This document shows positions 8,174 to 32,734 of a stretch of DNA of 32,734 nucleotides, piece by piece (the stretch's first letter is position 1; each line of letters opens with the position of its first letter). The DNA lies in NCBI GenBank assembly GCA_001793155.1, contig MGHI01000019.1, positions 1-32,734 on the forward strand, read 5' to 3'. The notes beneath the pieces are model-generated. The model searched no databases. It had not been told where the DNA came from and saw nothing but the letters and a program-made list of their open reading frames with translations. The position numbers and the translations under genes were made by a program. This DNA comes from Candidatus Woesebacteria bacterium RIFCSPLOWO2_01_FULL_39_61. GTDB taxonomy: Bacteria > Patescibacteriota > Microgenomatia > UBA8517.

Positions 8174-10036
8174 TTACATCGATTTAGGGGCTTGAATTCC
8201 AAGAAGATAAAGACCATTTTTTAGAATTTGACCAGTAGCAGCGGTAAGTGCCAGTCTAAAATCTCTTACACTCTCCTGCTCTTCCACTCTTACACTCTCG
8301 TCTTTCAATATTCCATGTTTCTGGTAAAACAAATTAAACTTTTGGGCTACGTCGTAAAGGTAGTTGCATAGTAAGTTTGGCGCGTAATTTTTGGTCGCCT
8401 CTTCAACAACCTCCGGATAATGAATAAATGTCCGAAGGAGTGAGAGCTCTTCTGGTTTTAAATCTTTATAATTATTATAATTTTTATGACGTCCTCCCCG
8501 CGCTAACAGTGCGGGGTTTCCTCTAAAGGAGGACGACATATCAGAGCTCAATTCATCCCCGCCTTGAAAGGCGGCGTTTTCTTGAGATCTGCTATAACTG
8601 TTATATTTTACTTTGCGCAAAACGGAGTTCGTCCGAGCGACCGTGTACTGTAAATATGGGCCTGAATTGCCTTCTAGCGAAATTGACTCCTTAATATCAA
8701 ATGCAATTTCCTGAGAAAGACCCACCTTCAGAAATGAATACTTAACGGCCGCAATAGCAACTTTTTCAGCGACATTTTCTTCCGACTTATAAGTTTTTAT
8801 AATTTCCTCTTTAACCTCATCTAAAAGCCACTCACCCAGTACTACATTTCCGGTACGCGAGGCCATCTTCCCCTCTTTTAACCTTACCCAACCATAAACG
8901 ATATGTATTTCTTTATTTTTAATCTCTGGTTTTAGAGCCTCCAATGCCTTAAAAACAACTCTAAAGTATTCTGTCTGTTCAGGTCCCACCACATGCAGAA
9001 CAAAATCCGGATTGTATTCTGCAAATTGCAGCTCGGCTAAGCCCATATCTTTCGCCTCATAAGTAGGTACATCTTCCGAGGTTATAAAAACCCTGTCGTG
9101 CAATCCGAATTTTTTTCCCGGAAAAATTACGGCTCCTTCACTTCTTTCGAAAATTCCTTTTTCCAGTCCTTCAAGTACTCTTTCCTTGCCTAATTTGAAA
9201 ACCTCGCTCTCAAAATAGAGCCTGTCAAATTTTACATAAACCCTTTTATAGATCGTTTCAAAATAATCCAAACTCCATTTCCTAGTCGCCTCATAAAGTT
9301 CTAAAAGCTCAGGATCACTCTTTTCGTACAATTTTTTATTAATATTTGCGATTTTTTCCTTGGCATCTTCATCTTCTTCATAATCCTGACTGCCTTCAAC
9401 ATAAGCTTTGCCCAAATAAGCCATTCTCCCTTTGACGTCGCCGGGATCCTCAAAACCAATTTTCTGAATGCCGTAAATAGCCTTCGCAATATGAAGACCT
9501 ACGTCTCCCTGGTAATTGACTCTGACGACCTTTGTACCGTTTGCTGCCAATATTCTGCATATTGCTTCACCGGTACATATATTCCTCAGGTGGCCAATAT
9601 GGAATTGTTTATGGGTATTGGGATGAGCAAATTCAACCACTATTTTGCTACCTTTCAAAATCTCCGACTCTCCAAATTTATCGGCCCTTTCAATAACTTC
9701 CTTGAGCATGCTTACAAGGACTGTCCCCGCAAGGCGAAAGTTGATAAACCCGGGACCGGCGACTTCTATTTGTTCGACGATTTCTGAAAGACCCTTGTCT
9801 TTTTTCAATTCCTCCGTTAACTTTTGCGCTAAGTTTCTCGGAGATTTTGAATCTTTTAAATTTTGATTTGTAATTTTGACCTTTGATTTTTCATTTTTGA
9901 TTTCAGCAAACAATTGCAAGGCAATGTTTGAGCTATAATCTCCAAACTCCTCATTCTCCGGAGTCTCCAAATGGATTTCTTGCTCTTTTATGCCCATTAC
10001 TTTTTCTAAAGCCTTTATGATTCCGTCTTTTATCAT
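8174..10036 (-). CDS. argS: Arginyl-tRNA synthetase, with two unusual insertions
   Basis: EFAHPNTHKQFHIGHLRN (HIGH), EGKMASRTGNVV (KMSKS-like), GNSGPYLQYTVARTNSVLRK, DALR-type C-terminus NYAPNLLCNYLYDVAQKFNLFYQ. Confidence 0.96.
   Translation of the reverse strand: MIKDGIIKALEKVMGIKEQEIHLETPENEEFGDYSSNIALQLFAEIKNEKSKVKITNQNLKDSKSPRNLAQKLTEELKKDKGLSEIVEQIEVAGPGFINFRLAGTVLVSMLKEVIERADKFGESEILKGSKIVVEFAHPNTHKQFHIGHLRNICTGEAICRILAANGTKVVRVNYQGDVGLHIAKAIYGIQKIGFEDPGDVKGRMAYLGKAYVEGSQDYEEDEDAKEKIANINKKLYEKSDPELLELYEATRKWSLDYFETIYKRVYVKFDRLYFESEVFKLGKERVLEGLEKGIFERSEGAVIFPGKKFGLHDRVFITSEDVPTYEAKDMGLAELQFAEYNPDFVLHVVGPEQTEYFRVVFKALEALKPEIKNKEIHIVYGWVRLKEGKMASRTGNVVLGEWLLDEVKEEIIKTYKSEENVAEKVAIAAVKYSFLKVGLSQEIAFDIKESISLEGNSGPYLQYTVARTNSVLRKVKYNSYSRSQENAAFQGGDELSSDMSSSFRGNPALLARGGRHKNYNNYKDLKPEELSLLRTFIHYPEVVEEATKNYAPNLLCNYLYDVAQKFNLFYQKHGILKDESVRVEEQESVRDFRLALTAATGQILKNGLYLLGIQAPKSM
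8491..8576 (-). mobile_element. IS200/IS605 right-end / omegaRNA-like palindromic relic translated within argS
   Basis: Minus-strand reading: CCGCC-tttcaa-GGCGG, GGATGAATTGAGC, then GTCCTCC...[CCCCGCACT-GTT-AGCGCGGGG]AGGAC. Adds about 35-40 residues (ENAAFQGGDELSSDMSSSFRGNPALLARGGRH) between catalytic core and anticodon domain. Confidence 0.55.
9842..9905. repeat. Degenerate GATTTTT-type heptamer repeat within argS
   Basis: gattttgaatcttttaaattttgatttgtaattttgacctttgatttttcatttttgattt; translated as KNEKSKVKITNQNLKDSK. Confidence 0.6.
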
Positions 10037-10130: not shown

Positions 10131-10928
10131 TCATACCCCTATCCAATTTAAAAAATCGTTAAGGGCACTTTTTGCCGTAGAGCTATCATGTCCACCGTTG
10201 CCATAAAGTCTTAATTTATAATCACTTTTATTATCTTGAAAGGTGGTTATCAGGGATTTATAAAATGCTACTGATTTCGAAAAATGAATACATTTGTCTT
10301 TCTTACCGTGGGCAATGAAAACCTTGGCACCCCTTAAAAATTCAATATTATCCATAGGGGACAATCCATCCCTATCATATAAATGTCTTAACCATACCTT
10401 CTCATTGAACCCCCTGTACAAGTACTTATACCCATCCATGAGTATGCAATCTATAAAATCTTCGTTTGTTTCCTCACCTTTGACTACACCTTGTTCACTT
10501 TGATCCAATGCCCCGAATATTACTCCAATCTCTTTAATGTTTTTATTATATTTAGGTAAAACCGGTACATAAGCTCCACCCAAACTTCTACCTGCAAAAA
10601 TTACCCTGTTATACTTCATTGGCACTTTAGTGTGTGAATAATGATTAATCCCTAACGTTCCTTTAGTGAACGAATCATATAGTTTCAGGAAAGTTTTAAT
10701 ACTATTCTTAGGTGTAAATCTGCCAATACTTCTTCCGAAACCAATATAGTCTGGAACAAACAAATCAATTTTTTTCTTTGTCACCACTATGGATTCTGGT
10801 AAATCACCATTATCCGGAACAGTCGGCGCACCAATCCCGTAAATAAGAATATTTTGCGTTATCTTACCGCAAGGGTAAAATATTCCCGAAATACCTTCAA
10901 TATTTAACAGAATACTATTCATCTTCAT
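10131..10928 (-). CDS. Alpha/beta hydrolase fold protein
   Basis: Nucleophile elbow FAGRSLGGAY (GxSxG), acid region VFIAHGKKDKCI, C-terminal GNGGHD. Confidence 0.75.
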   Translation of the reverse strand: MKMNSILLNIEGISGIFYPCGKITQNILIYGIGAPTVPDNGDLPESIVVTKKKIDLFVPDYIGFGRSIGRFTPKNSIKTFLKLYDSFTKGTLGINHYSHTKVPMKYNRVIFAGRSLGGAYVPVLPKYNKNIKEIGVIFGALDQSEQGVVKGEETNEDFIDCILMDGYKYLYRGFNEKVWLRHLYDRDGLSPMDNIEFLRGAKVFIAHGKKDKCIHFSKSVAFYKSLITTFQDNKSDYKLRLYGNGGHDSSTAKSALNDFLNWIGV

Positions 10929-10929
10929 A

Positions 10930-11748
10930 TTAGGCTTTTATTTGAATTCTTGTCATTTGCCTTAAGCTCTCTGTAAAACGAGCGATTCCAAATAATGGTT
11001 CTAGCCGCTCCGCAACTACATAAATTCCATTGTGACCGACTATATCAGCAATTTTATGATCAAATGACATATAACCAGCTATTAACCAAAAAGCCCCATT
11101 AAATGTCATCCCATTCATTGATAAAACTCTCTCGACTATATGTCTATTCTTTTTTGAAGTACTAATATCTGAATTGAAATAAGCATTAAGATGTGCGATT
11201 AGTTCTGTTTCCTTATTAACATAATCTAATTCAGTTAATACACTTAGCGATTGTGGATGACTCAAGTCTACAAATTGTGGAAAGTTGACATTATGATCAT
11301 TATAAGTTGACCAATGTAAATTCATATGATTTACTTGAGCAAATTTATGGTAAGCAACTGAATATAGTTCCTCATGGTATTCTAACGTTCTCTGATCCTC
11401 ATCACTTGGCAATCCTGGGAAAAGTACACCTCTGTTTGCGAATATCGCATGTAAGTTTACGTTGCCACCAAAAGTCGTGAGAGACCCGTTCATATTTTGT
11501 AAAACCTCATTATATGCTTTGAACTTATTTGCTACCCGAGAATCCTCAATTTGTAATGGAGGTTTTATTAATCCCGCTGTACTCAGATCCCCCTGAGCGT
11601 ATAAAGGGCACACAACAACACATACGTTTAAGTCCTTACCCAAAATATCTTTTTCGTTTATCACAGATGTCTCTGGCCAAGACGACTTAACCGTCGACCA
11701 GAATAATTCGGAGTGTTTTTTTGGATCAATAATTAATTCTTTATACAT
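10930..11748 (-). CDS. Uncharacterised 272-aa protein, first gene after the T-box-like leader
   Basis: Complete ORF in operon with the hydrolase (1-nt gap); no family recognised by eye. Confidence 0.75.
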   Translation of the reverse strand: MYKELIIDPKKHSELFWSTVKSSWPETSVINEKDILGKDLNVCVVVCPLYAQGDLSTAGLIKPPLQIEDSRVANKFKAYNEVLQNMNGSLTTFGGNVNLHAIFANRGVLFPGLPSDEDQRTLEYHEELYSVAYHKFAQVNHMNLHWSTYNDHNVNFPQFVDLSHPQSLSVLTELDYVNKETELIAHLNAYFNSDISTSKKNRHIVERVLSMNGMTFNGAFWLIAGYMSFDHKIADIVGHNGIYVVAERLEPLFGIARFTESLRQMTRIQIKA

Positions 11749-11760
11749 TTTTTAGCAACA

Positions 11761-12066
11761 AAAAAAAGCCCCTCCAATCTCTGAACTGATTCAGAAACTG
11801 AAGGGGCTCTTCGCATACTTCGAAGGACTGCTTGCCACTCCGAAGCTTTATGCGAAGGGTGGTACCACCCTTCTTCAATTATTCCCTGTTCCAATAAAAA
11901 TCCGGCTATAAAGCCGGAGATCTCGAAACTACAAGGAATAATCCTTATTATTCAAGAGCTCCGTTTCCGACACTCTCTAGTACTGTAACGGGTACTCCCG
12001 TCAGGCATTTTTGCCTGCAGCTCCCGGATCGCGACTCCGGTAATAACGCTTTTACTTTTTCAATGT
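11761..12066 (-). promoter_or_regulatory. T-box-like leader RNA (tRNA-sensing transcription attenuator)
   Basis: Minus-strand GAAGGGTGGTACCACCCTTC at 11873-11854 contains the T-box core GGGTGGTACCAC; preceded by hairpins (CCGGA/TCCGG, CAGGCA/TGCCTG, ACGGG/CCCGT, TCCGGCT/AGCCGGA). A competing stem (11849-11857/11809-11817) overlaps the T-box 3' half; final terminator AGCCCCT/AGGGGCT plus T-run lies just before the ATG. Confidence 0.72.
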
Positions 12067-12070
12067 ATTT

Positions 12071-12079
12071 ATTATACCA
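12071..12079 (-). promoter_or_regulatory. Extended -10 promoter element (TGGTATAAT) for the T-box-like operon
   Basis: Minus-strand TGGTATAAT at the expected position just 5' of the leader; no good -35. Confidence 0.5.
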
Positions 12080-15917: not shown

Positions 15918-18524
15918 CTAAAGTACAAAATTCACCAATTTTTCGGGTACGAAAATTTCCTTTTTAATCTCTTTCCCTTCAAGCCATTTGGCAAGGTTAT
16001 TTACTTTTTTTGCACTTTCAATGACTTTTTCTTTATCTTGGGCTTCGGACTTACTCAAGCTTATGGTCCCGCGCAACTTACCGTTTACCTGTATGACAAT
16101 TTCTACGCTATCTTCTTCGATAAATTCAGGATTATATTTAGGCCAGGGGTAGGTATGAACACTAAATTCCTGACCTAAAATATTCACCCAAACCTCCTCT
16201 GCTAAGTGTGGTGCAAACGGTGCCAACAATAAGGCTAAGTTCTTTAAAGCTTCATCCCACTCAGCACATCTTATATTATTAAAGTGCTTATTTTTAAATC
16301 TCGATTTATCTTTTTGATTTTTGATTTTAGATTTTTGATTTTTACTTGCTACTCCGCGCAACAAGTTTATATACTCCATAATCGACGATATCGCAGTATT
16401 ATATCTAAATTCTTCTATATCCTCGGTCACTTTCTTTATAGTTTGATGCATTTTGATCATTATGAATCGAGCGCCCTCTTCATCTAGCACAACTACGTTT
16501 TTGAAATTAGTAAATAGTTCCCAAACCCTGTCTACGAACCGTCTCATACCTTCTATTCCCGTATCACGAAAATCAGGAAATCCGTCCATGGGGCCCATAA
16601 ACATAAGATAGAGTCTTAAAGTATCTGCGCCGAATTTTTCTATGTAGAGATCAGGATTAACCACGTTCCCTCTGCTTTTGCTCATCTTGGCTCCGTCTTT
16701 GATCATAAGTCCGTGAGCAAAAAACCTTGGAAATGGTTCATCAAAATCCAGGTAACCACGATCATGCAGTACCATCGTTACAAACCTGGCATACATAAGG
16801 TGTAATACCGAATGTTCGGCACCGCCAAAATATAAAGATACCGGCAGCCACTTCTTTGTTATTTCCCTATCAAACGGTAACTTTGTACTACTTTTTGAAT
16901 CAACGCTCGGGTAGCGTAGAAAATACCAGGATGAATCTACAAACGTGTCCATGACATCCGTTTCTCTTTCTGCACTACCTCCGCAATTGGGACAAGTGGT
17001 TTTAAAAAACTCCGGATGGTTTGCCAAAGGACCTCGACCCTTGCCTTCCGGTTTATAATCGGATATTTCCGGCAGTTGTACAGGCAGCTCTTCTGATGGG
17101 ACCGGTTGCCAACCACACAACTTACATTTAACCATAGGAATCGGAACACCCCAATAACGCTGTCTTGATACTAACCAGTCACGAAGATGATAATTGATAA
17201 CCCGCTTACCCCATCCTTTTTCCTCAAGGAAATCCATCATTTTTCCGATTGCGATATTAATATCCAAACCGTTAAGAAATTCAGAATTGATCATCGTACC
17301 CTCCTCTTCCTGGACTTGATTTACATCTGTAATATCCGACTGATCTTTATCCTGTCCTACTACAACCCTAACAATCGGAAGTTTAAATCCTTTAGCAAAC
17401 TCAAAATCTCTTTTATCATGACCCGGGACCCCCACTACTGCTCCCGTCCCAACTTCAGATAAAACAAAATCACTTACCCAGATCGGCATTTGAGTATTAT
17501 TAAGTTGATTTAATGCATAAAGACCAGTAAATACCCCCGTTTTTTTTCTACCCTCATTCAATCTCTCTTCCTTTGATTTACTAAGAGATAATTTGATATA
17601 TTTTTCAACTTTGCTCTGAACGTCTTTAATAAGTAAATTCTTAAGGTTTTGCTTAGCATATTCTGGAGAAACCACAATAAAAGTTGCTCCAAAATTAGTA
17701 TCGGGTCTTGATGTCCATACGACAATTTCTTGATTACTATCTTTAATCGGATAGGTAATATTAATACCTTCTTTTTTACCGATCCAGTTTGTTTGAGCCA
17801 ACTTAACTTTGTCAGGCCAGTCAATTTTCTTTAGTCCCGCTAGCAGTCTGTCGGCGTATTTAGTAATCCGAAAAAACCATTGCTCCAAAAGTTTCTTCTC
17901 AACTTGTGTCCCACACCTCTCACAAACCAAAATATCCTTTTTTCCTTTTATAATATTTCCCCGCGCATCTTTCGCTTCTTTTCCGGCCTGGGCAGGACTC
18001 ATAACCTGCTCGTCAGCGAGCACTGTTTTATCGGACGGACACCAGTTAACTTCCGTTTTTTTTCTGTATGCAAGTCCAGCCTTAAATAACTCGATAAAAA
18101 GCCACTGTGTCCATCTATAATAATCAGAGTCAGATGTGGTCACAGTTCTTCTCCAGTCATAACTATGGCCCAGACTTCTCAATTGTTGTTCATATTTTTT
18201 GGTGGTTTTTTCAAGCATCTCTCTGGGATGCTTTCCAATCTTTAAAGCGTAGTTTTCGGAGTGAATTCCGAAGGAATCGTACCCAATCGGTTGAAATACG
18301 ATCTTTGCATTCATCCTTTTGAATCTTCCGTAGACGTCGCTTCCTGTAGAAGCAAAGGCATGGCCGGCATGCAAGCCCTCTGCTGAAGGATAAGGAAACA
18401 TCCAAAGGTTGTAAAAAGCATTAACTACCTTGTTCATGTCGGAAAGTTTATAAAGATTCTTTTCTTCCCAAATTTTCTGCCAGTGAGTTTCAACACTTGA
18501 ATGATTAAATACCTGTTTTCTCAT
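15918..18524 (-). CDS. leuS: Leucyl-tRNA synthetase
   Basis: FPYPSAEGLHAGHAFASTGSDVYGRFKRM, GAEHSVLHLMYARF, DGAKMSKSRGNVVNP. Confidence 0.97.
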   Translation of the reverse strand: MRKQVFNHSSVETHWQKIWEEKNLYKLSDMNKVVNAFYNLWMFPYPSAEGLHAGHAFASTGSDVYGRFKRMNAKIVFQPIGYDSFGIHSENYALKIGKHPREMLEKTTKKYEQQLRSLGHSYDWRRTVTTSDSDYYRWTQWLFIELFKAGLAYRKKTEVNWCPSDKTVLADEQVMSPAQAGKEAKDARGNIIKGKKDILVCERCGTQVEKKLLEQWFFRITKYADRLLAGLKKIDWPDKVKLAQTNWIGKKEGINITYPIKDSNQEIVVWTSRPDTNFGATFIVVSPEYAKQNLKNLLIKDVQSKVEKYIKLSLSKSKEERLNEGRKKTGVFTGLYALNQLNNTQMPIWVSDFVLSEVGTGAVVGVPGHDKRDFEFAKGFKLPIVRVVVGQDKDQSDITDVNQVQEEEGTMINSEFLNGLDINIAIGKMMDFLEEKGWGKRVINYHLRDWLVSRQRYWGVPIPMVKCKLCGWQPVPSEELPVQLPEISDYKPEGKGRGPLANHPEFFKTTCPNCGGSAERETDVMDTFVDSSWYFLRYPSVDSKSSTKLPFDREITKKWLPVSLYFGGAEHSVLHLMYARFVTMVLHDRGYLDFDEPFPRFFAHGLMIKDGAKMSKSRGNVVNPDLYIEKFGADTLRLYLMFMGPMDGFPDFRDTGIEGMRRFVDRVWELFTNFKNVVVLDEEGARFIMIKMHQTIKKVTEDIEEFRYNTAISSIMEYINLLRGVASKNQKSKIKNQKDKSRFKNKHFNNIRCAEWDEALKNLALLLAPFAPHLAEEVWVNILGQEFSVHTYPWPKYNPEFIEEDSVEIVIQVNGKLRGTISLSKSEAQDKEKVIESAKKVNNLAKWLEGKEIKKEIFVPEKLVNFVL
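16292..16343. repeat. GATTTTT heptamer repeat translated within leuS
   Basis: aaatctcgatttatctttttgatttttgattttagatttttgattttt; translated as KNQKSKIKNQKDKSRFKN. Confidence 0.75.
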
Positions 18525-27582: not shown

Positions 27583-27639
27583 TAGTTTTATAGATTGATT
27601 TTTAAACTATCATAAATTTCAAAACGCTACTTGCCCAAT

Positions 27640-30600
27640 ATGCCCACTAAAAAAGAATCGCTTTTATCAATAAACCAAGCCTCAAAGTCATTAAGTGTTA
27701 CTGAAAAAACATTAAGACGTTGGGAGGCTAAAGGCTTTCTAATTCCAATCAGAACCTCCGGAGGTCACCGTCGATATTACTCCTCGCAGATCGAAAATAT
27801 CAAAAGGAAAAAGGGTAAAAAGAGAATCACTAAAAATTTGATCGCAAAGACTTGGATTGATGATTCTGAAATTATTACCGCATATAAAACGCAACTACTG
27901 CGATCTGATACTAAAAAGCTACAAGAAAAAATTACCAATAAAGCAATTCAAAAAGAACCTTTACTCACTCCACTCCAAACCAAAACTGTTCTTGAAGATA
28001 TATATAAATTTACTCCAAAGATTTATAAAAAAATTCTTTGGGTATATCTATCGACCTTTATGCTTTTAATTTCTGTTTATTTTAGTTCAAGACACCTTCC
28101 GGAAATCAGATCTAAATATAAAATCGCCGATTATGCAGTTAGGAAAACTATGCAAGTTCTTCCTTTTATCGGTAATAATATGCAAAATAATAATGATTTT
28201 ATATCGGATCAAGATAACCTTGAAACTAAACCTACATCTACCGTTCTGGCCGCTACCTCATTTAATAATGTTTCTTTTAAAGTAAATGTAGAAAGTTTTT
28301 TCGCTGAAGATTCAAACTTCTCGGGTAATATTGCAGCGAACGGCGGAAGTATAACAACAAGTTCTGATAGTTTTGATTTAGTGAATTTAAACGCCACTAC
28401 CTTAAATATCGGAGGCGCGGCATCAACGGTTTCTATTGGAGCAACAACAGGAACAACATCAGTAAATAATATTCTCAACGTAGTTGGAAACATAATTACA
28501 ACCCCTGGCGATCTGACTTTGGATGCAGGAGGAGGGGCAGTATCTGTGGGAACAGGAACTCCTGAAATAATTGATCTGGCGGATGACGATCTTTATATCA
28601 CAGGAGATCTTGAATTAGATGGATCATTAGTAGTCGGCAGTGATTCTGTAAATGATTTAACAGGAACGGGTCTTCAGGTTTCCGGTGGTGCACTACAAAC
28701 TACATTAGGAACAACAATAGAATCATCAGAAATAACAGATTCTACAATATTAGAAGTAGATCTTAACGCATCAAACTCTGCCTCTAACGGTCAATTTTTG
28801 ACTTACAACTCATCTACGGGTGGATTTACCTGGACAAACTCATCCGGGAGTTTATGGACTGATTCCGGCACAATTACATATTTGACAGAAACCGGTGACG
28901 ACTTGGCTGTTGGCGGAACCGACTCAAGCTCTTCCTTTTTTCTTGATGTTTCAAGCGGAAACCTAAGTATCACCGGGGATTTAGCTGTAAACGGAGATGA
29001 TATAACATCCGACTCAAATTTAACCATAAATGCGCTGGGATATGTACGCGTAGGAGATACTTCAACTCCCGTTTCCGCAACGGGTGATGATGATCTTTTT
29101 GTCGAATCCGACCTTGAAGTTGATGGTGTTATATATATTGACAATCAGTTTGTTATAAATACGGACACGTTTTCCGACTTAACAGGAGACGGACTCCAGG
29201 TTTCCTCAGGTGTACTGACTTTGAGACTGGATACGACTGCAGCTGATGGTGCGACCACAACTTCTGTATCTGGATTGGAGCTTGTCGGCGGAGAGCTTTC
29301 ATTAGTCAGGGGTTGTGCTGCCGATCAGATATTAAAATGGGATGATAGCAACTTCGAGTGGGATTGTGCAGCTGATGCCGGCGGGGGAACAAATTATTGG
29401 CAATTAAATGGTAATGTCCTAGCTCCCGGAAATGATGCGCTGGTCACCGACCAACTTATTTTAGGGGGTGGAACTTCGACAGATTTCTACTTTGAAGTTT
29501 CTGGTTCCAGAACCGGCAAAGCCCTGGTTGCCTTGACGGAAACCGGTGACCAGGACATCCTCGTTGCCTCTTCATCCGCAACAACCAATGTCTTCAGGTT
29601 AACAAGGACAGGAAATGTCATGGCAGCTGATCTGACCCTTGGCTTAAACGATACAACAGCTACGATTACAACTGCCGATACCGATGAGGACTTGACAATT
29701 AACCCAAATGGTGCGGGTGACATTTACTTCCATGGGTCAACATACAATCTTTCAGATACGGGTGACCTGACTCTCGGGGGAAGGATTACTTTTGAAAACA
29801 GCGAATTTATTGACAATGAAACTGAAGGCTCAATCGTCTTTAACGACTCAGGCGGTAATACTTTGACTTTTGATTTAGACGCGACAAATCCCACCTTAAA
29901 CTCTTCAACAGGAACGCTGGTCATTGATGATATTTTAACGGTAACCGGCACCGGTTCATTCCAGGGAAATACCATAGGACTAAACAATGACGCATTCGCC
30001 AATAACTTAATCGGTGTTGCTGCAGCAGGAGGAACGGCCGGTGAAGATCTTTACTGGGGAGACAAGCTTGTGTGTGATGCCGACCAGACAAACTGCGGCT
30101 GGCTGGCTGTGGTTTCCAATAATGATCTCTGGCAACTTAATTCTAAAGTTTTATCCCCCGGCAACACAACTTGGGATCTGGCGGTCGGAGGGACTGCAAC
30201 AAGTAGTGCTCTCTTTAATATTCAAGGTTTAACCGGTAAAGCAATCGTAACCCCCAATACCACCGGAACTTATCTTGATTTTGATCTTGAAACCGAGTGG
30301 ACTGGAGGGAATTTAATAAGCGCTAATTGGGATTCGCCTACTACCCAAGTTGGTTCTCTTTCTTTAATCAACCTTGATTTTTCTAATCTGACTTCTGTTG
30401 CAGGTAGTCCTACTTACGGCATCTATATAAACGATCTTGCCGCACAAACATCCGGGACTGAATATGCAATTTTCCAGGAAGGAGGACAATGGGATTTCGG
30501 TGGCTATTTTGAAGACGATTTAGCAACACTAAATAATCTTTACGTAGGCCAGACAACTGAAACTATCAACAATACTGGGTTTGTAATCAATGGTGATGAT

Positions 30601-32734
30601 TTCTTTGTATCCGGAATGGCGGGAATAGAAGGAAGTGTCTATACTGACACCTCGTTTATTGCTGGTACTGGTTTAACGATTTCGGATTCTGCTATTAGTG
30701 AAACTGCAAGTCTGAATTTCCAACCGGACAGCGATAGTGACGATTATATCTTCTTGAGTACTACTTCAGACCTGCCGGCTATATTTTGGGAAACGGGTAT
30801 GACTACTAATGATGCAGGTCTGAGAATATCTGTAACAGATGATACAGGACAACTCCAATATCGAGATCAAAATTCGGCCAGTTGGGTATCTTTTGACTCA
30901 TTTGGACTCGCATCTAATGACCTCTGGCAGTTAAATACCCAGATTATTTCTCCTGGAAATTCGACTTGGGATGTGGCCATTGGAGGAGCCGCAACCTCTA
31001 GTGCTTCATTCCAGGCCTTTGGTATTGAAACGGTAGGCGGCAATGTCGCCAAGCTAACCAGTGACACCATAACAACAGGGTCTGTACTTGAAGCAACGGC
31101 CAGCGCAATAACCTCGGGCAATTTACTTAAACTGGGTCAGGGAGGAAACTCTGCCTTCTCCGGTAACGTCATATATGCTGATATCGATAATACAGGCGGA
31201 GACACATTCACGGGCAACTTCCTTCGCTTTGACAACAATCAAAGTACCGTATTTAGTGTTAATTCAGCCGGATCAATAACAATTGATAATTCAGGAAATA
31301 CGGGCCAGCTGTCGGTTGAGGGAACCGTCCTTGACATAGACTCACTGACCTTTGTGGGAGCAGGAACGCTGACTTCAACCTCAGCCGATCTTTCATTAAC
31401 CACGGCCGGATCCGGAGACATTACTCTTAATCCGGCCGGTACCGGCCAGGTTGAGTTTGCAGACGGAGACTTTGTCAATATCGGCGGAATTGTTGATCAA
31501 ACAACAAATGCCATCTCTGATGCAGGAGCAACGATTAACTTTGCAACTTCCGATAATGACCTCTACATACAGGATGTGCTGGAGGTTGACGGGGTAATTT
31601 ACCAGGCAGGTAATCAGGTCTGTGACACCTCGGGAAACTGCGCTGGTACTTCAGGTGGAAGCAAATGGCAATTAAACGCCGGAGCTATTTCCCCCTTCGT
31701 CAGCAGTCTTGACGTTCTGGTGGGATCATCCGCAACTTCCTCTGCCACAGTTGTTGCCAAAGGTTCAAATACCGTTGGTCGTGCAGCTTTGATCGTCAAC
31801 CAAAACGAGTCTCAAGATATTTTCAGCGCATCGGTTTCCGGCGGTTTTAGATTCGCCATCCAAAACGATGGCGACTTGGAGTTGAGAAACCAGGCAATAA
31901 TCTCAAATGCGACAGACGGTACGCTTTCTCTGACAGAACCCACCATCCAGCTTGTTGGTGCAACCGCAATCGACGTCGATTCGCCTTTAATAAACCTTTC
32001 GACACAAGCAACTGACATTGAACTTAAGGATGCTGAAACATCAGCTCTAACCATATCTTTGGGATCCGATAACTTCCTGACTTTCGATACCGGTGACAGT
32101 TCTGAATCATTAACCGTTGGAAATTCCCTAACCAATATGAGCCTTGTCTTTGATATCGGTTCTTCGGGAAATATAACCTTTTCTGATTTCCAGACTGATG
32201 CCAATGCAGTTCTATACACCAATACATCAGGAGTCTTAACAAGAGTCGCCGAAACCGAAACGGGATCCGAGTGTTTATTATCCGGTGCAGGTGCATCAGG
32301 AGCTCCTTCATGGGGTACTTGTCCCGGAGGCGGCACAAACTACTGGCAATTAGGGACTCAAGGAATAGCACCTTACAATCTTACACTTGATACCTATTTT
32401 GGAGGTACAGCTACTGCCTCTGCTCACTTGAGAGTCGCAGGAATTGAAACTGCAACCGGAAACGTACTTGATATTAATTCCGATACAATAACATCCGGAA
32501 CGGTTGCAGACTTTAATGCTTCGGCAATAACTTCCGGGGAAATATTAAAGATTTCAACAACCGGTAATACTTGGAATACTGGTCAGCTTTTAGAAGTTTC
32601 CTCAACCGCCACTTCCTTAACCTCAGGAAACCTCGGACTTTTCGACTGGTCACCCTCTTCCTGGGCAACCGCATCTGGGGATTTAGTCAGAATCAACATA
32701 GGTCAGTACGGAGATACAACAGGCAATCTTTTTG
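27640..32734 (+). CDS. Giant repetitive putative surface protein with N-terminal MerR-like HTH and one TM helix; open at window end
   Basis: Frame open from ATG 27640 to window end: SINQASKSLSVTEKTLRRWEAKGFLIPIRTSGGHRRYYSSQIENI (MerR-type HTH), TM ILWVYLSTFMLLISVYF, then >1500 aa of Gly/Ser/Thr/Asp/Asn-rich beta-type repeats. Confidence 0.88.
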   Translation, partial: MPTKKESLLSINQASKSLSVTEKTLRRWEAKGFLIPIRTSGGHRRYYSSQIENIKRKKGKKRITKNLIAKTWIDDSEIITAYKTQLLRSDTKKLQEKITNKAIQKEPLLTPLQTKTVLEDIYKFTPKIYKKILWVYLSTFMLLISVYFSSRHLPEIRSKYKIADYAVRKTMQVLPFIGNNMQNNNDFISDQDNLETKPTSTVLAATSFNNVSFKVNVESFFAEDSNFSGNIAANGGSITTSSDSFDLVNLNATTLNIGGAASTVSIGATTGTTSVNNILNVVGNIITTPGDLTLDAGGGAVSVGTGTPEIIDLADDDLYITGDLELDGSLVVGSDSVNDLTGTGLQVSGGALQTTLGTTIESSEITDSTILEVDLNASNSASNGQFLTYNSSTGGFTWTNSSGSLWTDSGTITYLTETGDDLAVGGTDSSSSFFLDVSSGNLSITGDLAVNGDDITSDSNLTINALGYVRVGDTSTPVSATGDDDLFVESDLEVDGVIYIDNQFVINTDTFSDLTGDGLQVSSGVLTLRLDTTAADGATTTSVSGLELVGGELSLVRGCAADQILKWDDSNFEWDCAADAGGGTNYWQLNGNVLAPGNDALVTDQLILGGGTSTDFYFEVSGSRTGKALVALTETGDQDILVASSSATTNVFRLTRTGNVMAADLTLGLNDTTATITTADTDEDLTINPNGAGDIYFHGSTYNLSDTGDLTLGGRITFENSEFIDNETEGSIVFNDSGGNTLTFDLDATNPTLNSSTGTLVIDDILTVTGTGSFQGNTIGLNNDAFANNLIGVAAAGGTAGEDLYWGDKLVCDADQTNCGWLAVVSNNDLWQLNSKVLSPGNTTWDLAVGGTATSSALFNIQGLTGKAIVTPNTTGTYLDFDLETEWTGGNLISANWDSPTTQVGSLSLINLDFSNLTSVAGSPTYGIYINDLAAQTSGTEYAIFQEGGQWDFGGYFEDDLATLNNLYVGQTTETINNTGFVINGDDFFVSGMAGIEGSVYTDTSFIAGTGLTISDSAISETASLNFQPDSDSDDYIFLSTTSDLPAIFWETGMTTNDAGLRISVTDDTGQLQYRDQNSASWVSFDSFGLASNDLWQLNTQIISPGNSTWDVAIGGAATSSASFQAFGIETVGGNVAKLTSDTITTGSVLEATASAITSGNLLKLGQGGNSAFSGNVIYADIDNTGGDTFTGNFLRFDNNQSTVFSVNSAGSITIDNSGNTGQLSVEGTVLDIDSLTFVGAGTLTSTSADLSLTTAGSGDITLNPAGTGQVEFADGDFVNIGGIVDQTTNAISDAGATINFATSDNDLYIQDVLEVDGVIYQAGNQVCDTSGNCAGTSGGSKWQLNAGAISPFVSSLDVLVGSSATSSATVVAKGSNTVGRAALIVNQNESQDIFSASVSGGFRFAIQNDGDLELRNQAIISNATDGTLSLTEPTIQLVGATAIDVDSPLINLSTQATDIELKDAETSALTISLGSDNFLTFDTGDSSESLTVGNSLTNMSLVFDIGSSGNITFSDFQTDANAVLYTNTSGVLTRVAETETGSECLLSGAGASGAPSWGTCPGGGTNYWQLGTQGIAPYNLTLDTYFGGTATASAHLRVAGIETATGNVLDINSDTITSGTVADFNASAITSGEILKISTTGNTWNTGQLLEVSSTATSLTSGNLGLFDWSPSSWATASGDLVRINIGQYGDTTGNLF

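Follow-up and report, generated by a model that had tools for sequence, protein, structure and literature searches.

The window analysed here is a stretch of 32,734 nucleotides from a 1.08-Mb genome that is 96% complete. On its minus strand it carries a leader (11760-12079) upstream of an open reading frame that starts at 11748, and the promoter element and genes of the locus are as follows:

12071-12079, minus strand: extended -10 element TGGTATAAT, read directly from the sequence and present at the same position in relatives; putative promoter
10930-11748, minus strand: first gene, encoding a 272-aa protein without a Pfam family, its fold possibly cyclodipeptide-synthase-like
10131-10928, minus strand: second gene, an alpha/beta hydrolase (Peptidase_S9-like; Pfam PF00326 above cut-off)
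8174-10036, minus strand: third gene, argS, arginyl-tRNA synthetase (Pfam PF00750, PF05746 and PF03485)

An earlier, sequence-only reading of this DNA had proposed a T-box-like leader ahead of a two-gene operon whose targets did not include a synthetase. That account stopped one gene short: argS follows on this strand, 94 bases past the second gene, and the operon very probably extends to it, which makes the target a classical one. Given the 94-base gap after the hydrolase gene, argS could also have a promoter of its own. As argS is not directly next after the gene pair in genome G014 (locus L173), and the pair of 272-aa gene and hydrolase occurs without a T-box ahead of it at L175, we regard the pair as the constant target and argS as a frequent one. 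Near the other end of the window, an open reading frame of at least 1701 residues (27631-32733, plus strand) runs off its edge.

The first gene matched no Pfam family, and sequence searches against the PDB returned nothing convincing; a PADLOC match was at chance level and was discarded. Upon comparing an AlphaFold model of the protein, built from four homologues (pLDDT 78, pTM 0.78), with the PDB, we found the top matches to be mostly cyclodipeptide synthases (CDPSs) and tyrosyl-tRNA synthetases, with probabilities up to 1.00, a best E value of just 2.5e-3 and a TM score of about 0.4. The model of a distant homologue (L175) was poor (pLDDT 50) and was left out. Any likeness to CDPSs lies in the predicted fold, with E above 0.001; no sequence similarity was detected. 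The protein has an invariant C-P-L-Y motif, and its cysteine (Cys47) lies near what we take, by eye, to be the position of the CDPS catalytic Ser. The modeled structure suggests that the first gene may be CDPS-like. Since CDPSs use aminoacyl-tRNAs (PMC5816076), such a protein would fit a tRNA-Arg-controlled operon, and we treat this as a lead.

The leader RNA and its covariation

The leader folds at -134.2 kcal/mol compared to -85.5 kcal/mol in shuffled sequences (z -9.4), with none of 100 shuffles doing as well. It matches the T-box model RF00230 over the whole model length (12053-11853) with 30.6 bits and an E value of 4e-5, which does not reach the gathering score of 93 bits, a database threshold rather than a biological feature that 17 of 288 class members pass. 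Some other Rfam families (SpF22, mir-1290 and others) gave weak matches over the terminator hairpin, which we ascribed to chance. The leader is the sole RF00230 match in the source genome, and hence a leucyl-tRNA synthetase gene within the window (15918-18524, minus strand) is without a recognisable T-box.

Because the RF00230 score alone was merely suggestive, we gathered relatives, and a model built from three leaders found further ones. Covariation was assessed on a MAFFT alignment of 31 sequences, covering Stem I, Stem II and both helices of the Stem IIA/B pseudoknot. Paired cells amounted to 96.7%, double changes occurred in 16 of 17 pairs, and the cells with double changes numbered 117 versus 29.6 in shuffles; sliding the structure by 1-3 columns as a control reduced pairing to at most 37%. 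The upstream part of the leader comprises:

12024-12040, minus strand: ultrashort Stem I, CCGGA-GUCGCGA-UCCGG; 5/5 pairs with double changes and 100% of cells paired in 31 relatives
12031-12033, minus strand: specifier codon CGC (Arg) in the apical loop of Stem I, from comparing CAC and CGC loops with the bulge base and tRNA genes
12002-12017, minus strand: Stem II, a short hairpin with an AAAAU loop and no S-turn; 5/5 pairs with double changes, loop conserved
11979-12000, minus strand: Stem IIA/B pseudoknot with F-box (CCCGUUA, 11986-11992); IIA and IIB covary, and the element fits the RF00230 consensus
11956-11977, minus strand: extra hairpin with UGUC opposite GGAG, inserted relative to the RF00230 consensus
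11878-11943, minus strand: Stem III, from the minimum-energy fold
11896-11918, minus strand: terminator-like hairpin with U5 inside Stem III, from a terminator scan; similar ones occur in relatives

Stem I is a 17-nt hairpin of 5 bp and a 7-nt loop, which reads GUCGCGA or GUCACGA across relatives. It is too short to hold the elbow-binding double T-loop motif, placing the leader outside the canonical long-Stem-I class I subclass. The AAAAU loop of Stem II is nearly invariant among the 31 aligned sequences, and 34 of 69 T-boxes of the group, versus 1.9% of shuffles, have a UGUY/RRAG hairpin separating the pseudoknot from Stem III. Stem III of 26 of 51 T-boxes contained a GC-rich hairpin with a run of four or more U after it, versus 0.5% in shuffles; one of six usable Firmicute-type T-boxes from viral contigs had a similar one, too few to call the feature Patescibacteria-specific. 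Long-Stem-I T-boxes with the specifier UAC occur in the same group as the ultrashort ones (L003-L007, L034 and L045), and a TyrRS gene follows in L006.

Part of this evidence would also suit a leader that is not a T-box at all, made up of a chance palindrome and an ordinary attenuator or terminator: the Rfam score is under the cut-off, and strong hairpins alone account for the folding z-score. Yet the pseudoknot covariation, the specifier/discriminator pairing and the target genes would then all be coincidence, and the co-variation in trans with tRNA-Arg base 73 (see below) speaks further against it, leaving this explanation with hardly any probability. The sequence-only reading had stated that the palindrome would be a simple hairpin if neither an RF00230 match nor covariation were found; the match is present below the cut-off, and the covariation is strong. 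With the T-box identity thus borne out by covariation and by the specifier/discriminator match, the leader at 11760-12079 is, on comparative grounds, a T-box riboswitch in an ultra-small, uncultured Patescibacterium (Microgenomates group).

Specifier codon and probable tRNA partner

The specifier codon, which had previously been left unassigned, could be fixed as CGC at 12031-12033 by comparing two classes of leaders whose loops, CGC and CAC, differ solely in the middle codon base. The bulge reads UGGG in 18 of 18 CAC loci with a readable T-box, and UGGU in eight and UGGC in two CGC loci, counts that come from related loci, so that their Fisher value cannot be read as a probability. One CAC row with an A (L060) stems from a match outside the T-box core, where the pattern used gave no core. 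UGGG pairs with C73, a base that is to our knowledge peculiar to tRNA-His; the tRNA-His of the source genome ends in C73, and tRNA-His genes lie downstream, on the same strand, of nearly half of the CAC T-boxes. This match of CAC, UGGG and tRNA-His sets the codon at loop positions 3-5.

On the arginine side, the source genome encodes a tRNA-Arg(GCG) with A73 and an encoded CCA, which fits both CGC and UGGU and agrees with the earlier suggestion that the bulge corresponds to a discriminator A. The tRNA-Arg(GCG) of four more UGGU genomes (G014, G016, G019 and G061) likewise has A73, and that of the UGGC genome G037 has G73. For the UGGC locus L073, we predicted G73 in tRNA-Arg(GCG) beforehand and then found it. 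Altogether, the bulge base agreed with base 73 of tRNA-Arg(GCG) in 7/7 genomes checked, two of them being UGGC/G73 cases. A pattern search for tRNA-Arg(ACG) found no tRNA.

A T-box read by another tRNA would be compatible with some of these data, as the 7-nt loop permits several frames: besides CGC, GUCGCGA contains GUC (Val), UCG (Ser), GCG (Ala) and CGA (Arg), and the ligand might be read in a different register or be a different Arg isoacceptor; leaders of the Trp type in this group have longer loops, and A73 is common among tRNAs. However, exchanging the middle base alone, CAC versus CGC, switches the bulge to UGGG, which fits the C73 of tRNA-His only, and many CAC T-boxes have tRNA-His genes downstream. 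Likewise, the tRNA-Arg(GCG) genes with G73 are precisely those of the genomes with a UGGC bulge, and the targets of the CGC leaders include argS, argG and argH. We therefore consider a different tRNA improbable; going by these correspondences, the reader of CGC is tRNA-Arg(GCG).

Terminator, antiterminator and candidate mechanism

The downstream part of the leader holds the elements of a switch:

11868-11873, minus strand: 5' arm of antiterminator helix A1, GAAGGG, pairing with 11800-11805; same layout in L028, L037 and L043
11861-11867, minus strand: T-box bulge UGGUACC, a T-box consensus match that co-varies with tRNA-Arg base 73; its UGGU would pair with ACCA
11854-11873, minus strand: 20-nt palindrome GAAGGGTGGTACCACCCTTC, a local hairpin masking the bulge in the OFF fold; from the minimum-energy fold
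11849-11857, minus strand: 5' arm of antiterminator helix A2, CUUCGCAUA
11809-11817, minus strand: 3' arm of antiterminator helix A2, UAUGCGAAG
11800-11805, minus strand: 3' arm of antiterminator helix A1, CCCUUC, also the terminator 5' arm
11760-11808, minus strand: intrinsic terminator with U8 (-30.3 kcal/mol), from a terminator scan

The elements named in the sequence-only reading, namely the extended -10 TGGTATAAT, the palindrome GAAGGGTGGTACCACCCTTC, CTTCGCATA (11849-11857) and its complement TATGCGAAG (11809-11817), are all present on the minus strand, as is the intrinsic terminator just before the ORF, with its U8 at 11760-11808. Some of their roles had to be reassigned. CTTCGCATA and TATGCGAAG do pair, but rather than being exclusive with the antiterminator they constitute its helix A2 in the ON fold, and the palindrome, formerly read as the antiterminator, is instead an alternative local hairpin hiding the bulge. 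The competitor of the terminator is helix A1, GAAGGG (11868-11873) with CCCTTC (11800-11805), since CCCTTC is also the terminator 5' arm; with this segment common to both, antiterminator and terminator are mutually exclusive in silico.

Folded freely, the platform reached -66.6 kcal/mol, compared to -40.4 kcal/mol with the antiterminator forced. The greater stability of the free platform indicates a default OFF state, as in T-boxes generally. Helix A2 of the window copy has one mismatch, adjoining the bulge. One could take these observations as signs of a decayed T-box, in which the fold persists while the terminator is always read through or always stops transcription, with no response to tRNA: the OFF fold is far more stable, A2 is imperfect beside the bulge, and a second terminator-like hairpin lies upstream. 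A strong OFF bias is nevertheless normal before tRNA binding, the leader has kept an intact bulge, specifier, pseudoknot and expression platform, and relatives retain the layout despite sequence change, which leaves a non-switching leader only a slim chance.

We favor, with a probability of about 0.92, a tRNA-Arg-sensing T-box riboswitch that acts by transcription attenuation. Against it we counted the RF00230 score under the cut-off, the A2 mismatch, the possible separate promoter of argS, the lack of an S-turn in Stem II and that of the elbow motif in Stem I, which has been described as essential for transcriptional T-boxes (PMC7583486). The structure, its covariation, the specifier, the matching tRNA, the discriminator co-variation and the targets were established in silico; on top of these we infer tRNA binding, the sensing of charging, antitermination and a transcript that reaches argS. 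In the proposed mechanism, the nascent leader would present CGC in the apical loop of Stem I, where the anticodon GCG of tRNA-Arg would pair with it, while Stem II and the IIA/B pseudoknot would position the tRNA. An uncharged tRNA would pair through its 3' ACCA with UGGU of the bulge and stabilise the antiterminator (A1 and A2), which would take the 5' arm from the terminator and let RNA polymerase read into the 272-aa gene, the hydrolase gene and argS. With a charged tRNA, or none, folding of the palindrome and of the terminator would end transcription. The leader appears to read the charging of one specific arginine tRNA and to switch the argS-containing operon.

Distribution, targets and known T-boxes

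At E<=0.001, RF00230 matched 24 of 57 near relatives and, across the class, 154 of 288 genomes; at E<=1e-6, it matched 80 of 290 genomes sampled from the phylum. Among 14 control genomes, five had matches (Bacillus, Lactococcus, Corynebacterium, Thermus and Deinobacterium), and the control E. coli and archaea had none. A pattern scan of 85,462 species genomes returned 25 loci, 24 of them labelled as Patescibacteria or its subgroups and one as 'bacterium'.

Many RF00230 matches lie upstream of synthetase genes, including argS, tyrS, proS and glyS (identified with family models) as well as trpS, thrS and ileS (assigned by domain and sequence start). Among the CGC T-boxes, L083 precedes the 272-aa protein, hydrolase and argS in the same order as in the window, with an intervening csaA-like gene in addition, and L043 and L028 precede a 272-aa-type gene and a hydrolase. 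Named from the sequence by eye, the next gene reads as argininosuccinate lyase (argH) in L029/L069 and as argininosuccinate synthase (argG) in L066. L025/L062 and L073 lie ahead of a gene for a fused phosphoribosyltransferase/HAD-like protein, whose HAD part was assigned by a family match and whose remainder was read by eye, and of a nucleoside-hydrolase-like gene, and L037 and L026 are upstream of unknown genes. Finding argS, argG and argH led us to abandon the view that these targets have nothing to do with aminoacylation.

Several relatives have features of their own. Genes for tRNA-His(GUG) lie just past T-boxes with the matching specifier at L030, L031, L035, L036, L064, L067, L071, L072, L077 and L082, as do genes for tRNA-Tyr(GUA) at L007 and L045; where the matching tRNA gene adjoins, the T-box may control the tRNA that it senses. 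In His-type T-boxes (e.g., L033, L036, L063, L064 and L071), a hairpin GGACC-GCGGGA-GGUCC with a U-run overlaps the bulge, and a second, conventional terminator lies downstream of it, such that pairing of the tRNA 3' end could block the first terminator directly. The CAC-loop leaders L031 and L035, located before tRNA-His, keep the loop and the pseudoknot, with no recognisable UGGGACC bulge. L028 contains a tRNA-like acceptor and T-arm without a 5' half between terminator and ATG, in which ARAGORN calls no tRNA.

With the class I T-boxes of Firmicutes (RF00230), of which it looks like a pared-down relative, the window leader shares the UGGNACC bulge, the IIA/B pseudoknot with F-box, Stem III, the antiterminator/terminator switch, a synthetase target and transcription attenuation. 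It differs from them in its 17-nt Stem I with an apical-loop codon and no double T-loop, the absence of the Stem II S-turn, the UGU/RAG hairpin, the terminator-like hairpin in Stem III and a score below the family cut-off. Ultrashort Stem I elements have been described for translational T-boxes in ileS leaders of Actinobacteria (Sherwood et al. 2015, as cited in PMC7583486); these likewise have an apical-loop specifier in an ultrashort Stem I and no elbow motif, and keep the IIA/B pseudoknot. By contrast, the window leader has an intrinsic terminator with U8 before the start codon instead of RBS sequestration, has an arginine instead of an isoleucine specifier and a Stem II without S-turn and belongs to a distant phylum. 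The argS T-box of Bacillus cereus (PMC2494555) resembles it by target gene, in that an arginyl-tRNA synthetase gene is under T-box control, but is from another phylum, and in the window a possibly CDPS-like gene and a hydrolase gene precede argS.

T-boxes have been described as abundant only in Firmicutes (PMC2494555). Our search of openly accessible papers found no link of T-boxes to Patescibacteria or Microgenomates; single copies may already be listed elsewhere, as in subscription papers or databases such as TBDB. T-boxes and ultrashort Stem I being already known, what would be new, judging from sequence, is a transcriptional, ultrashort, arginine-specific T-box in Patescibacteria. More tentatively, and with the odds leaning somewhat against it, the T-boxes of Patescibacteria may form a separate lineage, in which transcriptional control is uncoupled from the tRNA-elbow contact that is said to go with it. 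Codons would be read by loop-loop contacts, with the UGU/RAG hairpin and the AAAAU loop replacing the lost ones, and two serial terminators, one of them in Stem III and acting as a terminator or a pause, would set the timing. The window copy would tune an aminoacyl-tRNA-consuming CDPS-like enzyme together with argS, and sister copies would control tRNA-His and tRNA-Tyr genes.

Overall, T-boxes are common in this little-studied phylum, occurring in about half of the sampled class genomes and in more than a quarter of the sampled phylum genomes, mostly under the Rfam cut-off. They would broaden transcriptional T-box control to include leaders whose Stem I does not bind the tRNA elbow, may help in linking unknown genes to particular amino acids, and would give a first inroad into amino-acid-responsive regulation in bacteria about whose regulation hardly anything is known.
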